Source: Anaerolineales bacterium UBA7227 (GTDB taxonomy: Bacteria; Chloroflexota; Anaerolineae; Anaerolineales; Villigracilaceae). From it: DNA of 23,356 bases. This document shows, piece after piece, positions 15,694-20,362 of this stretch. Below the pieces are notes generated by a model. The model was not told where the DNA came from. It saw only the letters and a list, made by a program, of their open reading frames with translations, and made no database searches. How positions within the stretch are numbered: the first letter of the stretch is position 1; each line of letters begins with the position of its first letter. The stretch is from assembly GCA_002473085.1 (NCBI GenBank), contig DKTP01000139.1:1-23356 (forward strand). The letters are read 5' to 3'. The translations under genes and the position numbers were made by a program.

Positions 15694-17394
15694 CTACCCC
15701 TTCTTCTGTTCTTTCGCCCAACTGTCTTTCAACGTCACCGTCAAATTGAAGACGGGTTTGCCGGGCGTCGAGTCGGGATCGGCGCAGAAGTAGCCCGTCC
15801 GCTCGAACTGGAGTTTTTCGCCCGCCGTCACGTTGGCGAGCGACGGCTCGACGTAACCGTTCAGCGTTTCGAGCGAGTTGGGGTTGACGATGGAGTCCAG
15901 CTCGCCGTCGTCGGGACGCTCGACGGTGAACAACTGTGAATAGAGGCGGACTTCCGCGCGGACGGCGTGCGCGGCCGAGACCCAGTGGATCGTGCCTTTG
16001 ACTTTTCGTCCGTCGGGCGCGTCGCCGCCTTTGCTGGCGGGATCGTACGCGCAGTGGACTTCGGTCTCGTTGCCCGCCTCGTCCTTGACGACGCCCGTGC
16101 ATTTGACCAGGTAGGCGTAGCGCAGCCGCACTTCGTTGCCGGGGAAAAGGCGGAAATATTTGGGCGGCGGCGTCTCGCGGAAATCGTCCTGCTCGATGTA
16201 GAGGACTTTCGAGAAGGGGACTTTGCGCGTCCCCGCGGACGGGTCTTCGGGGTTGTTGACCGCGTCCATTTCTTCGACCTGCCCTTCGGGATAGTTGTCA
16301 ATGACCAGTTTGAGCGGGCGTAGGACGGCCATACGGCGCAGGGAGTGTTTGTTCAAGTCGTCGCGGATGACGGCTTCGAACTGCGCCATCTCCACGTAAC
16401 TGTCGTTCTTGGTTTCACCGAGCCCTGTCACGAAGTTGACGATGGCTTCAGGCGTGACGCCGCGGCGCCTCAGTCCGCGCAGGGTGGTGAGACGCGGGTC
16501 GTCCCAGCCGCGCACGATCCCCTCCTCGACGAGTCTCCGCACCTTGCGTTTTGACATCATCGCGTAGGTCAGGTTAAGGCGCGTGAATTCGATCTGGCGC
16601 GAGGGGAAGGCCTCCAGCTTTTGCAGGAACCACTCGTAGAGCGGACGGTGGATGATATATTCGTTGGAACACAGCGAGTGGGTGACGCCCTCCATCGAGT
16701 CGTTCTGTCCGTGCGACCAATCGTACATCGGGTAGATGTGCCACTTGTCGCCCGTGCGGTGGTGATGCGCGTTCATGATTCGATACATGACGGGATCGCG
16801 CAGCAGGATATTGGGGTGCGCCATGTCAATTTTGGCGCGCAGGACGCGGCTGCCTTCGGCAAATTCGCCGTTCTTCATCCGCTCCAGCAGGTCGAGATTT
16901 TCCTCGACGGAACGATTGCGATACGGAGAGTCGACTCCAGGCTTGAGCGCGGACTCGGTCTCGCTCCACTTCGTACCCTTCGGCAGGGTCCCGCGCGACG
17001 CGCTCATCTCCTCCTGGGTCTGGTCGTCCACGTAGGCGAGTCCCATTTTGACGAGTCTCACCGCCCAGTCGTAGAGCAGGTCGAAGTAGTCGGAGGCGTA
17101 GGTCTCCTTCGCCCACTGGATTCCCAGCCAGGCCGCGTCCTCCTTGATGGCGTCCACGAACTCGGTCTCTTCCTTGGACGGGTTGGTGTCGTCGAAGCGC
17201 AGATAGAGTTCGCCGCCAAATTCCTGCGCGGTGAAGTAGTCAATCAAAAAGGCTTTGACGTGTCCGATGTGGAGGTAGCCGTTTGGCTCGGGCGGCAGGC
17301 GTGTGCGGACGTAGTTGAAGCGTCCGCTTTTCAGGTCTTCGGCGACGGCTTCACGGATGAAGGCAGGGATTTTGCTGGCGGTTTCTTCGGTCAT
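15694..17394 (-). CDS. glnS: Glutaminyl-tRNA synthetase
   Basis: This class I synthetase attaches glutamine to tRNA-Gln. The 566-residue product carries [16 protein letters not shown] (HIGH at 42-45), [11 protein letters not shown] near 73-83, the [12 protein letters not shown] segment, and the KMSKS-equivalent MSKRK near 279-283. A C-terminal beta-barrel anticodon-binding region follows (about 340-550). GlnRS is thought to derive from the eukaryotic GluRS/GlnRS line and its presence implies direct charging instead of the GatCAB route. The ATG at 17394 is chosen for its AAAGGAA site 8 nt upstream; a GTG-type extension to 17415 is unlikely. Its cognate tRNA-Gln(CUG) gene stands 257 bp upstream in the opposite orientation. 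Confidence 0.96.
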
Positions 17395-17414
17395 TTTGTT
17401 TCCTTTGTACCGCA

Positions 17415-17420
17415 ATTATA
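17415..17420 (-). promoter_or_regulatory. -10 element of glnS
   Basis: TATAAT on the minus strand lies 20 nt upstream of the glnS ATG, with AAAGGAA in between. The -35 position is poor. Its upstream flank is the 9-nt repeat tract at 17436-17480. Confidence 0.45.
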
Positions 17421-17435
17421 ACAAACGCCCGGCGG

Positions 17436-17480
17436 TTCTTTGGCGCAAAGGGTTTTTGTGTCTTGGCGGTTTTGTGTGAA
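17436..17480. repeat. 9-nt-period tract upstream of glnS
   Basis: Successive 9-nt windows TTCTTTGGC, GCAAAGGGT, TTTTGTGTC, TTGGCGGTT and TTGTGTGAA share a TTTGYG core. The period matches elements A and B and not the heptad arrays. Confidence 0.4.
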
Positions 17481-17510
17481 AAGGATTCCCCAAGTTTTAC
17501 TTGCTGCTTT

Positions 17511-17529
17511 CCCGAAGTTCTACTTCGGG
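17511..17529. repeat. 8-bp hairpin in the glnS-tRNA spacer
   Basis: CCCGAAGT (17511-17518) and ACTTCGGG (17522-17529) form a perfect stem with a 3-nt loop. A related weaker hairpin, CAAGT with ACTTG, lies at 17491-17503, and the flanking GGATTCCCC and GGGATTCC make the whole block roughly palindromic. No U-tract follows. Function unknown. Confidence 0.45.
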
Positions 17530-17605
17530 ATTCCAAATTTTCATCATTCGGAGGCGCTCCCCCGTTCATGCTTTGTAAAAGCCATGATGAAAGCGCGTTC
17601 CGCCC

Positions 17606-17634
17606 TTGCCCGAAACGGACGGGCGTGCTAAAAT
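17606..17634 (+). promoter_or_regulatory. Promoter of tRNA-Gln
   Basis: TTGCCC (17606-17611) and TAAAAT (17629-17634) are spaced by 17 nt. The expected start near 17641 leaves a short 5' leader of about 10 nt before the mature tRNA, to be removed by RNase P. Confidence 0.6.
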
Positions 17635-17651
17635 ACCGCCCGCTGGAATAG

Positions 17652-17722
17652 TGGGGGCTCGTCTAATGGCAGGACGACTGACTCTGGATCAGTTAGTAGA
17701 GGTTCGAATCCTTTGCCCCCAG
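17652..17722 (+). tRNA. tRNA-Gln (anticodon CUG)
   Basis: The cloverleaf folds cleanly. A 7-bp acceptor stem pairs TGGGGGC with GCCCCCA, with G as discriminator. There is a D-arm around AATGGCAGG and a 5-bp anticodon stem ACTGA/TCAGT around loop CTCTGGA (anticodon CTG at 17684-17686). The T-arm has a GGTTCGAATC core. CCA is not encoded (CTT follows), so the cca product must add it. It decodes CAG. It stands divergent from glnS, and an array of 80-bp units carrying tRNA-end-like sequence follows directly. Confidence 0.95.
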
Positions 17723-17996
17723 CTTGAAAAGACTCCCAACCGGGAGTCTTTTCATTGAGCGGTTCGGATCCCCATTCAGGGGACGATGTCCTTTGTCTCC
17801 AGCTTGAAAAAACTCCCAACCGGGAGTCTTTTCATTGAGCGGTTCGGATCCCCATTCAGGGGACGATGTCCTTTGTCTCCAGCTTGAAAAGATTCCCAAC
17901 CGGGAGTCTTTTCATTGAGCGGTTCGGATCCCCATTCAGGGGACGATGTCCTTTGTCTCCAGTTTGAAAAGACTCCCAACCGGGAGTCTTTTCATC
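17721..17996. repeat. Tandem 80-bp repeat array derived from the tRNA-Gln 3' end and its terminator
   Basis: Three full units (17721-17800, 17801-17880, 17881-17960) and a partial fourth (17961-17996) are nearly identical. Each begins AGCTTGAAAA (AGTTTGAAAA in the fourth), contains the hairpin ACTCCCAACCGGGAGT (with single changes in units 2 and 3), and ends with GGTTCGGATC, a 20-nt insert and CTTTGTCTCC. Except for the insert, that last part matches the tRNA T-arm and 3' acceptor (GGTTCGAATC, CTTTGCCCCC). No protein gene is supported here. Confidence 0.9.
17726..17753 (+). terminator. tRNA-Gln terminator, repeated four times
   Basis: GAAAAGACTCCC and GGGAGTCTTTTC form a 12-bp stem around AACC with a built-in U-run. 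Copies recur at 80-nt steps at 17806, 17886 and 17966. Unit 2 has an A-C mismatch and unit 3 a U-G pair in the rightward RNA. The symmetry allows termination in both directions, so the array also insulates secF from rightward readthrough. Confidence 0.8.
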
Positions 17997-18072: not shown

Positions 18073-18990
18073 TTAGAGGGTCTGCGCTTTTTCTCCGCGA
18101 CGGAACCACGTTGTCCATTCGCGGTTCTGCCATACCACCAGCAGGGGCGCGGCGATGAAGATGGACGAGTAAGTTCCGCTGAGCAGGCCGACGAGGAGGA
18201 TAACGGCGAATTCGCGCAGGGTGATCCCGCCGAAAAGGGCCAGGGCCAGGAGCATGAATTCGACGGTCATCAATTGGGTGTTGATGGAGCGCTGCAGGGT
18301 CTGGATGATGGAATGGTTGGCGAGCGTCTCGAAGGGCAGGCGGCGATAGATGGACGAGTTCTCGCGGATGCGGTCGAAGACCACGATCTTGTCCTGCACC
18401 GAAAAGCCGATGACGGTCAGCAGCGCGGTCAGGAAGAGCGCGTCCACCTGCCAGCCCCAGAATGTTCCGCCGATGGCGGTGACGGACATGACGATGGCTA
18501 CGTCGTGGGCCATGGCGACGATGGCGGTGATGCCGTAGCGGAAGGCATGTTCGAGGCCGCGGAAGGTGAAGGTGATGTAGATCACCACGGCCAGCGCGGC
18601 GATGCCCACCGCCAGGGCGGCGCGTTTAGCCACCTGTTCGCCGATGGACGGGCCCACGCTGTCGAATTTCTCGACGGTCAACTCTCCGAATTTTTCCTTG
18701 AGGGCGCTTTGGATTTCCCTGCTGGAGGCTTCGTCCAGGAAGGAGGAGCGGACCTGGATCGTCCCCGCGCCGGTCGTCTGCACCTGGGCGTCTTTCACGC
18801 CGAGGCTTTCGTAGACGGCCACCACGTCGGCGGGCGCGGGCTGTTCGCCCGAGAAACGCACCTCGAGGATCGAGCCGCCCGTGAAGTCGATCGAGAGCGG
18901 CAGGCCGTTGAGCGCGATGAGGATCATCCCTGGAACGATGATGAGCAGGGAGATGGCAAAGTACCAGTAGCGTTTTCCGAGAATGTTCAT
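18073..18990 (-). CDS. secF: Protein translocase subunit SecF
   Basis: SecF works with SecD at the SecYEG channel and uses proton-motive force to complete protein export. The 305-residue product has an N-terminal membrane helix (YWYFAISLLIIVPGMILIAL), the signature IDFTGGSILEVRF near 34-46, an extracytoplasmic domain to about 130, and then five hydrophobic segments of the RND-like core, including DVAIVMSV and GFSVQDKIVVFDRIREN near 195-211. ATG 18990 is chosen because GGGAG lies 8 nt upstream; an extension to 19011 would overlap secD. It lies 10 nt after secD, so the pair is one operon ending at the hairpin 18042-18065. Confidence 0.95.
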   Translation of the reverse strand: MNILGKRYWYFAISLLIIVPGMILIALNGLPLSIDFTGGSILEVRFSGEQPAPADVVAVYESLGVKDAQVQTTGAGTIQVRSSFLDEASSREIQSALKEKFGELTVEKFDSVGPSIGEQVAKRAALAVGIAALAVVIYITFTFRGLEHAFRYGITAIVAMAHDVAIVMSVTAIGGTFWGWQVDALFLTALLTVIGFSVQDKIVVFDRIRENSSIYRRLPFETLANHSIIQTLQRSINTQLMTVEFMLLALALFGGITLREFAVILLVGLLSGTYSSIFIAAPLLVVWQNREWTTWFRRGEKAQTL

Positions 18991-19000
18991 GTGTTTCTCC

Positions 19001-20362
19001 CTAAAGACCAAACCATTTCAGGTTTTCGTCGCCGGGTTTAATGACTTTGAGGACGAGGTTGAGCAGGGTGCGGGTGACGAGGATGGCGGTGAAGAGCGAA
19101 ATTCCCACGCCGAGGGCCAGGGTCAGCGCGAAGCCTTTGACGATGGTCGCCCCAAAGGATGAGCCGAACCAGAACAGGATGATGGAAGTGATGATGGTGG
19201 CCAGGTTCGAGTCGCGGATGGAGGACCAGGCGCGCGTCCAGCCCAGGTCAACCGCGTTGCGGAGGGTGCGCCCGGCGCGCAGTTCTTCCTTCATGCGCTC
19301 AAAGATGAGGATGTTGGCGTCCAGGGCCGCGCCGGTCGAAAGCAGGAAGCCCGCCACGCCCGCCAGAGTCAGGGTGATGGGGATGTACTTGAAGACGGCA
19401 AAGGCGATCAGGCCGTAGATAATGATGGACACATCCGCTAAAATACCGGGCAGGCGGTAGTAGATGCCCATGAAGAGGAAGACAATGATGATGCCGACCA
19501 GCCCGGCGATCAGGGATTTCTCCAGCGAGTCCTGGCCGAGGGTTGGACCGACCACGCGGCTTTCCACGATCTTGAAGGGGATTGGCAGGGAGCCGTAGCG
19601 CAGTTGGATGGCCAGCGTGTTGGCGGCTTCGTTGGTGAAATCGCCGGTGATCTGGCCGCTTCCGCTCGTGATGGGCTCGTTGATTTGAGGCGCCGAAATG
19701 ACCGTTTTATCGAGGACGATCCCAAGATATTGCTGGCTATGAGTGGAAGTGTGGTCGCTGAAAATCACCGCGCCTTCCGCGGTGAGCGTAAAATCAATGG
19801 CGTTGCGTCCATAGGCGTCTTTGGCGACCAGCGCGGAGGCGATCTTATCCCCAGTCATTACGGTGTGATAGATGATCGGCTGGGCCGGGTCGGCGTTGTT
19901 CAGGTCGGTCGCGACGCCCCCGTCCACGTCGGTCTGGACGACCGTCCCGGCGGGGACTCTGGTGTGGCCGAAATCCACGAATTCGAGGCGTCCCGTCTCG
20001 CCGAAACTGGCCTTGATCGAATCGGGATTCGCGGCGTCGGGAAACTCGCCGACGATCCGGTTGCTGCCCGCCACCTGGAGCACGCTTTCATTGACCCCGA
20101 GCGCGTTGGTGCGATTCTCCAGAATTATGCGGGCGGTTTCCATTTGCTCTTTCGTGATGACCGTGCCTTCGGGAACGTCCGCTTCAAGCACGACCTGCAG
20201 GCCGCCGCGCAGGTCGAGGCCGAGTCTCGGGCTGACGTCGCGGCTCCACAGGGGCTTCTGGGTGAAGGGGTTGGTGATGCTTATCTTCTGATTGAAGTCG
20301 ATCCAGACCGCCAGGACGACAACCAGGACGATCAAAATTACTCTGTTCGTTAGATTTCTCAT
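19001..20362 (-). CDS. secD: Protein translocase subunit SecD
   Basis: SecD pairs with SecF in the membrane to drive late steps of Sec export. The 453-residue product starts with a membrane helix (VILIVLVVVLAVWIDF), then RLGLDLRGGLQVVLEAD near 46-62 (the SecD signature), a long extracytoplasmic region holding the P1-like domain (about 65-260), and five C-terminal membrane segments with LLSTGAALDANILIFERMKEE near 340-360. The ATG at 20362 is preferred, with GGAG about 8 nt upstream; a GTG at 20380 is possible. A TATAAT on the minus strand at 20412-20417 and a leader hairpin at 20387-20403 precede it. Confidence 0.96.
   Translation of the reverse strand: MRNLTNRVILIVLVVVLAVWIDFNQKISITNPFTQKPLWSRDVSPRLGLDLRGGLQVVLEADVPEGTVITKEQMETARIILENRTNALGVNESVLQVAGSNRIVGEFPDAANPDSIKASFGETGRLEFVDFGHTRVPAGTVVQTDVDGGVATDLNNADPAQPIIYHTVMTGDKIASALVAKDAYGRNAIDFTLTAEGAVIFSDHTSTHSQQYLGIVLDKTVISAPQINEPITSGSGQITGDFTNEAANTLAIQLRYGSLPIPFKIVESRVVGPTLGQDSLEKSLIAGLVGIIIVFLFMGIYYRLPGILADVSIIIYGLIAFAVFKYIPITLTLAGVAGFLLSTGAALDANILIFERMKEELRAGRTLRNAVDLGWTRAWSSIRDSNLATIITSIILFWFGSSFGATIVKGFALTLALGVGISLFTAILVTRTLLNLVLKVIKPGDENLKWFGL

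Follow-up and report, generated by a model that had tools for sequence, protein, structure and literature searches.

What kind of element is the row of tandem repeats that directly follows a tRNA-Gln gene in contig DKTP01000139.1 of Anaerolineales bacterium UBA7227, and is it peculiar to this locus? Both questions were addressed by analysis of the whole 23,356-nucleotide stretch, referred to here as the window, and by comparison with related genomes. The window array belongs to a larger family, found across the order Anaerolineales, in which a copied tRNA tail is split in its T arm by a conserved insert; that this insert is common to the window array and to arrays behind other tRNAs had gone unremarked in the preliminary description of the locus. 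The Anaerolineales arrays appear to be a so far overlooked family, either of tRNA-linked RNAs or of repeat elements. Tentatively, we favor the view that the window array is part of a lineage-wide tRNA-tail repeat family that works like the RtT repeats of Escherichia coli, with a putative readthrough RNA.

The tRNA-Gln gene and the parts of its array are as follows.

17652 to 17723, plus strand: tRNA-Gln gene (anticodon CTG), CCA not encoded (ARAGORN; Rfam RF00005, 58.5 bits)
17723 to 17802, plus strand: repeat unit 1, 80 bp (Tandem Repeats Finder (TRF), self-comparison)
17803 to 17882, plus strand: repeat unit 2, 80 bp (TRF, self-comparison)
17883 to 17962, plus strand: repeat unit 3, 80 bp (TRF, self-comparison)
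17963 to 17995, plus strand: terminal 33-bp stub, the terminator part of a fourth unit (self-match 17964-17995)
17725 to 17754, and again 17805-17834, 17885-17914 and 17965-17994, plus strand: terminator-like inverted repeat after the tRNA (opposite-strand self-match, fold)
17756 to 17769 in unit 1, also 17836-17849 and 17916-17929, plus strand: copy of the variable loop (V-loop), T-stem 5' strand and T-loop of the tRNA (comparison with tRNA-Gln)
17770 to 17788 in unit 1, also 17850-17868 and 17930-17948, plus strand: insert CCCC-ATTCA-GGGG-ACGATG (pattern, model R1)
17789 to 17802 in unit 1, also 17869-17882 and 17949-17962, plus strand: copy of the T-stem 3' strand and acceptor 3' end (comparison with tRNA-Gln)

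The claim that tandem 80-bp units stand behind tRNA-Gln was confirmed by TRF (period 80, 3.6 copies, 96% matches, score 539, span 17709-17995), as three units and the stub. Comparison with tRNA-Gln likewise upheld the described composition of the unit, a terminator hairpin and tRNA 3'-end-like sequence split by an insert of about 20 nt: the inverted repeat is followed by TGAGCGGTTCGGAT, the V-loop, T-stem 5' side and T-loop of tRNA-Gln, then by the insert CCCCATTCAGGGGACGATG, and then by TCCTTTGTCTCCAG, the T-stem 3' strand and acceptor end, where the tRNA itself has the uninterrupted AGTTAGTAGAGGTTCGAATCCTTTGCCCCCAGC. Each unit terminates in CTCCAG, followed by CTTG, with no encoded CCA. Between the three units, 1, 1 and 2 of 80 positions vary, in the terminator part alone, and the 47 bp comprising the T-arm copy, insert and tail are identical in all three. 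The tRNA-Gln gene with the first terminator folded at -49.6 kcal/mol (z -5.25), and the whole unit at z -3.60.

A second genome of the window's species (G032; genomes, loci, genera and families are labeled G, L, g and f, g1 being the window's genus) carries the same tRNA-Gln followed by one unit and the stub (E 6.6e-36), a copy number of 1 versus 3 in the window. The occurrence of the array in two assemblies of one species, and of arrays in genomes assembled into 1-4 contigs (G142 and G099, for instance), makes an assembly artefact hardly credible, even if some arrays lie at contig ends and G382 contains a 6750-bp identical repeat that is maybe an assembly duplicate. Split units behind tRNA-Gln were also found in two other genera. 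As a DNA query, the whole unit matched 4 of the 152 genomes of the family, the window's own included; matches are few because the tail and terminator vary by locus, and the insert was therefore searched alone.

Directly behind its array, G032 has about 814 bp of inserted sequence that the window lacks (L016 1729-2542). The insertion encodes a RibD_C reading frame (PF01872, 86 bits), its ends, GTTAGGC/GCCTAAC, resemble an integron attC site, and it is perhaps a gene cassette at a secondary site.

The loci examined in the window's own genome contain 39 called tRNAs, 38 of them with some downstream sequence (63-450 bp). Tail copies were found downstream of three tRNAs, Gln, Glu-TTC (one full and one nearly full unit) and Pro-TGG (one unit); the hairpin insert was present at all three sites, and no tail copy without the insert was found among the 38. 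At the Pro-TGG locus (L184), the 3' arm of a terminator-like hairpin doubles as the copied V-loop/T-stem strand.

Searches with the insert showed that the family extends well beyond the window's species. With at most three mismatches, it was found in 49 of the 152 genomes of the family (3 for a reversed control pattern), and with at most one mismatch to a looser pattern in 61 of 400 genomes of the order (reversed control, 1 of 400). A covariance model built from 36 units, with 14 candidates scored per genome, matched 122 of the 400 genomes at E ≤ 1e-4, the best E being ≤ 1e-6 in about 103; among good genomes it matched 83 of 210, and among the genera of the order 39 of 130. Matches are concentrated in families f1 and f13, and those in seven genomes of f8, f9, f12 and f14 (E 9e-5 to 1.9e-9) are known from the model score alone. 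Plain tRNA T arms came near the model cut, with up to 24 bits (L197) and 28.8 bits (L074 837-870). Model R1 matched the window at 17770-17791, 17850-17871 and 17930-17951, and the 20.3 bits scored by each of these window-type units fall under the cut, so that the model search misses the window's own type. A pattern search across the phylum matched 12 of 301 genomes; 10 of these belong to the family of the window, and the other 2 lie outside the order and have no tRNA beside the match. The first exact insert pattern had no match in genome contigs, and the looser pattern matched 4 stretches.

The loci examined share one anatomy: trailer, V-loop/T-stem 5' side, insert, and the T-loop and tail of the local tRNA. 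Arrays stand behind tRNAs with 18 anticodons (Ser-GGA, GCT, CGA and TGA, the TGA tail being disturbed; Lys-TTT and CTT; Glu-TTC and CTC; Gln-CTG; Met-CAT; Asn-GTT; Pro-GGG and TGG; Gly-GCC and TCC; Arg-GCG, CCG and TCG) and behind one transfer-messenger RNA (tmRNA) gene (L159; RF00023, 157 bits). Seven loci (L050, L059, L080, L114, L118, L119 and L158) lie at contig ends or lack a called tRNA, and there the gene was deduced from its tail or not assigned; an earlier array table, in which the reverse-strand rows of L036 and L119 were off-target, was not used for the counts. The preliminary description had proposed looking for the unit behind tRNA-Gln and other tRNAs in further genomes of the group, and had counted absence from all relatives against itself; units do stand behind tRNA-Gln in relatives and behind these other tRNAs, and arrays are present in the second genome of the same species and across the order. 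No description of such arrays was found in the titles and abstract openings of the literature searched. The Ser-CGA loci of g1, g6, g8 and g26 have a common flanking reading frame (66-75% identity), and three Gln loci (g1, g14 and g26) have neighbors in common; the pair totals of the neighbor comparison also count short frames that surround the tRNA, and they cannot be taken as evidence of synteny.

In most arrays (type B) the insert is located between the T-stem 5' strand and the T-loop, before TTC, and in the Gln arrays and L114 (type A) after the T-loop, before TCC. Its structure was examined in two alignments. Alignment A1 holds 36 of 38 picked units, one per locus and each nearest to the consensus, a choice that leans towards conservation; L057 and L115, which are out of register, were omitted. 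Alignment A2 was made from the 150 best of 186 model matches, of which the 114 distinct rows were kept. In A1, the insert hairpin CCCC-loop-GGGG (helix 1) was 99.3% paired and nearly invariant, and a second helix formed with the T-loop, GGAY-NNN-RTYC, was also 99.3% paired. With the loop length chosen for best pairing, helix 1 had 4 of 4 pairs in 106 of the A2 rows, 3 in 7 and 2 in 1; later arrays contained the variants CCTC/GAGG (L247) and CTCC/GGAG (L248), and the insert loop varied to GGAA (L236) or to 3 nt. An extended 7-bp form of helix 1 was not supported (81.0% paired, shuffles 81.1).

The closing pair of the T-loop helix was paired in 114 of 114 A2 rows (T-A 104, C-G 4, G-C 2, A-T 2, T-G 2); 5000 one-column shuffles, which ignore relatedness, averaged 102.6 and reached 108 at most. 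In a model-free regular-expression collection that did not demand the pair, 124 of 125 rows had it, and the exception, L229, does not resemble a unit. The C-G type was contributed by two Arg arrays and by two nested inserts (L081, L116, L063 and L112), G-C from L243 (and L066), and A-T from L249. Such base-pair covariation implies a probable constraint on the folded strand; helix 1 and the T-loop helix may be alternatives to each other. The base-paired insert also supplies a search model.

A further hairpin-like insert, CCTACCTGCGGTAGGGTGCGATGCGA, was seen in the acceptor part of a Glu unit around 1530-1570 of L102.

Array structure was parsed for 75 submitted loci, giving 73 arrays and 135 units in 55 genomes; 36 arrays have one unit, 20 have two, 12 three, 3 four, one five and one six, and in the arrays examined the tail-to-tail distance is about 55-170 bp. 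The tail of the first unit resembles the local tRNA: on average it reached 16.3 of 20 when compared with its own tRNA and 9.7 with the best-scoring tRNA in the set that carries a different amino acid, and the own tRNA scored better in 65 of 73 arrays, equal in 5 and worse in 3. First-unit tails were decayed (score ≤10) in 9 of the 73. Among the 37 arrays with at least two units, the first unit was nearer to the tRNA than the last in 25, the last was nearer in 4, and 8 were tied (p 1e-4), with one score threshold (5) for all units; stricter thresholds of 8 and 10 gave 21 versus 4 (p 9e-4) and 20 versus 4 (p 0.0015). A first parse, covering 28 of 70 loci, had given p 0.30, and a second (26 versus 4, p 6e-5) was replaced because it was biased, demanding a tail score of the first unit alone. 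The loop base of the insert was C in 4 of 8 arrays in g1, compared with 0 of 30 in g26 (p 9e-4; one genome per species, with G032 left out as belonging to the window's species). These C-loop arrays of g1 span Ser, Glu and Gln, and the four include orthologous Ser-GCT arrays of two genomes.

Terminator-like hairpins were found in 102 of the 135 trailers, compared with 1-3 after shuffling, and in L046, L074 and L122 their sequences vary between units with the hairpin kept. Both observations would fit tandem fail-safe terminators, in which the terminator alone matters and the tRNA tail is carried along. This explanation is very unlikely, since Met L121, Arg L236 and Ser L237 have no internal terminator, a partial refutation, and the part conserved between loci is the insert rather than the terminator.

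The main rival is that the arrays are a selfish or neutral repeat: tRNA tails would be duplicated and a tiny hairpin module would enter their T arms in front of TTC or TCC, the tails would then multiply by unequal crossing-over, and the RNA would do nothing. Such a repeat agrees with the patchy distribution, the copy number of 3 versus 1 within one species, the distal decay, and the genus-specific loop base across unlinked tRNAs. It also agrees with double inserts nested at the same point in L063, L112, L050 and L152, and with a full-length tRNA-Gln copy, not called by ARAGORN, that has the insert in its T arm (G089:C193). However, no source element was found, viral contigs had no match to three exact patterns, the covariation points to constraint on the folded strand, and, among the matches examined, intact inserts (≤1 mismatch) in f1 and f13 sit in tRNA or tmRNA tails. 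The two exceptions, L047 and L085, have no tail and resemble another motif or chance. We consider a selfish or neutral origin possible, if doubtful. Among the phage records listed (20 of 29), the tRNA-Gln gene alone was matched.

Copies at unrelated intergenic sites, as expected of dispersed palindromic repeats, would be matches without a tail. The 11 loci examined in f1 (three-mismatch search) that lack a tRNA tail have 2-3 mismatches, with L047 among them at 1 mismatch to the looser pattern. Outside f1, the tail-less loci among the matches examined are L085, L088, L129 and L130. At L029, L030 and L047, where no tRNA was called, a different hairpin motif was seen, GGGGGAGATGTCC or GGGGAAGATGTCC followed by GTAGGACAGAGGGGG or AAAGGACAGAAGGGG.

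Repeated duplication of an attachment site had been offered in the preliminary description as an alternative origin, and the present results weaken it. Integrative elements using the T-loop as core would have left a row of attR-like tails. Such tRNA tails, from T-loop to 3' end, are a usual identity block of integrative elements, and the tRNA-Gln loci of relatives have indeed been altered: in G026 and G028 (L142 and L143) the tRNA-Gln gene breaks off at the anticodon loop or directly behind it and is followed by a different, complete tRNA-Gln, which is a gene replacement, and G026 retains a decayed unit. Yet a tyrosine integrase (PF00589) was found within 10 kb of just 1 of 28 insert loci in 14 genomes, serine integrases not being tested, and in that one case it is part of a tRNA junction on the anticodon side, upstream of a unit already present. 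For this count, PF00589 matches were compared by eye with 28 insert loci found by pattern, 27 of which were examined, G105:C38 being a model match alone; loci found later by the model are outside the count. In addition, tRNA-derived V-loop/T-stem sequence lies directly left of the insert in units, the same insert occurs with 18 anticodons, and in the arrays examined, with the tail-to-tail distances given above, no element body separates the tRNA from the displaced tails. Accretion of attachment sites is thus unlikely, and copies of tRNA tails behind tRNA genes are not always attachment-site scars.

At G052:C25 (L158, 357000-359500), an integrase gene ends at a partial tRNA-Lys, which begins on the anticodon side and is followed by a split-tail unit. 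Integrative elements do strike these tRNAs, yet this case does not explain the units.

To our knowledge, RtT has so far been an isolated oddity of E. coli. In E. coli K-12, three copies of a 178-bp unit (TRF, 3.1 copies) lie behind tyrV, and the first of them is annotated as the small RNA RttR. The unit contains a V-loop/T-arm copy that is interrupted within the T-loop by an insert rich in hairpins: the unit ends in GCTTCGACCAAGGTTCGA (with small differences), about 67 nt, and AATCCTTCCCCCACCACCA, where the E. coli tRNA has CGACTTCGAAGGTTCGAATCCTTCCCCCACCACCA. Between the unit body and the 5' part of the T arm, the best match was 11 of 13, equalled in 13 of 10000 simple shuffles. The RtT unit was matched in 4680 of 5426 E. 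coli genomes, at 1-9 places each. Model R1 scored 21.3 and 19.8 bits in E. coli, located in the T arms of tyrT and tyrV.

The likeness to the E. coli tyrT array noted in the preliminary description is thus closer than had been claimed. In both systems tandem units directly follow a tRNA gene, each ends in the 3' end of that tRNA, and the T arm of the unit is split by a structured insert, a criterion derived from the E. coli sequence rather than from a published definition known to us. The systems differ in unit length (178 bp in E. coli, 80 bp in the window), in the insert, the E. coli one being unlike the 20-nt Anaerolineales insert, and in the encoding of CCA (E. coli copies end in CCACCA). 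The E. coli units stand behind one tRNA (others were not searched), whereas many tRNAs and a tmRNA are followed by arrays in Anaerolineales. As the preliminary description had judged, the sequences themselves look unrelated. The Rfam library includes RtT; in an Rfam scan of the window the tRNA alone reached the gathering score and RtT was not matched, and at six related loci a relaxed threshold of up to E 1 gave tRNAs, tRNA-Sec and low-scoring others, and no RtT.

Other known systems resemble the arrays in part. The E. coli leuZ 3' external transcribed spacer sponge is a tRNA trailer RNA, and the idea of a tRNA-linked trailer acting as RNA, putative in the present case, is the same; we know of no tRNA-tail copies or split T arm in that spacer. 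Repetitive extragenic palindromic (REP) sequences and Rickettsia palindromic elements are small palindromic repeats, which likewise place a short conserved hairpin at several positions in a genome, but the intact insert lies almost only inside copied tRNA or tmRNA tails among the matches examined. A CRISPR-like array, an integron attC site, guide-sequence transposons and a CsrA sponge were also considered and set aside. For RtT, no description of the split T arm was found in the literature searched, a coverage that lies outside the original RtT papers. A table row of one paper lists rtT RNA among variable repeats (PMC2658671).

The RtT-like reading, which we favor tentatively, builds on the anatomy, the family, the covariation, the likeness to the local tRNA, the distal decay and the change of copy number within a species. 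A unit is a copy of the 3' part of the tRNA, from the V-loop to the discriminator base, with its T arm opened by the conserved structured insert and with a trailer or terminator next. Part of the transcription may pass the first terminator, and tRNA-like 3' ends may be cut or stopped, releasing RNAs of about 80 nt. The insert would pair with the T-loop, mostly GGA with UUC 54-56, so that the copy would not fold as a normal T arm. Unequal crossing-over would alter the copy number, and recombination with the tRNA may keep the near units tRNA-like. The reading is supported because E. coli RtT has the same split-T-arm layout, is annotated as a small RNA and is widely matched, and because of the spread of the unit model, the pairing of both helices, the likeness of tails to the local tRNA, the trailer terminators, the distal decay and the genus-linked loop base.

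Several results weigh against the RtT-like reading. The distribution is patchy, most genomes of the order being without a match, and in G027, of the same genus, tRNA-Gln is followed by a terminator without a unit, and there is no model match. A terminator-like hairpin stands behind the last unit in just 38 of the 73 arrays (0-5 after shuffling), and the three arrays without internal terminators count here as well. Helix 1 shows no covariation among the 36 A1 units and shares two G residues with the T-loop helix; both sides of the A1 T-loop helix changed in 2 sequences alone, at one pair; and the rare closing-pair types and later variants represent few independent events in few lineages. The T-stem is just 77.2% paired in A1 units, and its covariation is that of different tRNAs. 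Folded alone, the insert and tail of the window were no more stable than shuffled sequences (z -0.62), and the minimum-energy fold pairs GGGGACGA with UUGUCUCC rather than CCCC with GGGG. Because this fold of the window's own unit counts against the hairpin, weight was shifted slightly from the RtT-like reading to a selfish repeat. Of the earlier interpretation as a whole, the RtT-like architecture stands and the attachment-site origin is weakened.

Since the T-loop UUC is common to nearly all tRNAs, an insert whose GGA pairs with it, as in type B, could serve many tRNAs as one module, which would account for its presence with 18 anticodons and a tmRNA. It is therefore conceivable, though we hold it with reserve, that there is a class of T-loop-locking inserts, in which the 3' helix of a single 20-nt module pairs with the invariant UUC; this class would define a general kind of tRNA-tail array that includes RtT, either as a functional RNA or as a minimal T-loop-directed mobile module. 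The existence of a second, larger split-T-arm family in another phylum, behind many tRNAs and a tmRNA, suggests that a general process makes or keeps such arrays. RNA ladders in unit steps from tRNA operons are a directly testable prediction of the RtT-like reading.

Two protein-coding genes flank the tRNA-Gln gene and its array in the window.

15694 to 17415, minus strand: glutamine--tRNA ligase gene, divergent neighbor of tRNA-Gln (NCBIfam TIGR00440, 666 bits, cut-off 425.8; Pfam)
18073 to 19011, minus strand: secF gene, convergent to tRNA-Gln

Between the ligase gene and tRNA-Gln (17416-17651) lies an inverted repeat, CCCGAAGTTCTACTTCGGG.
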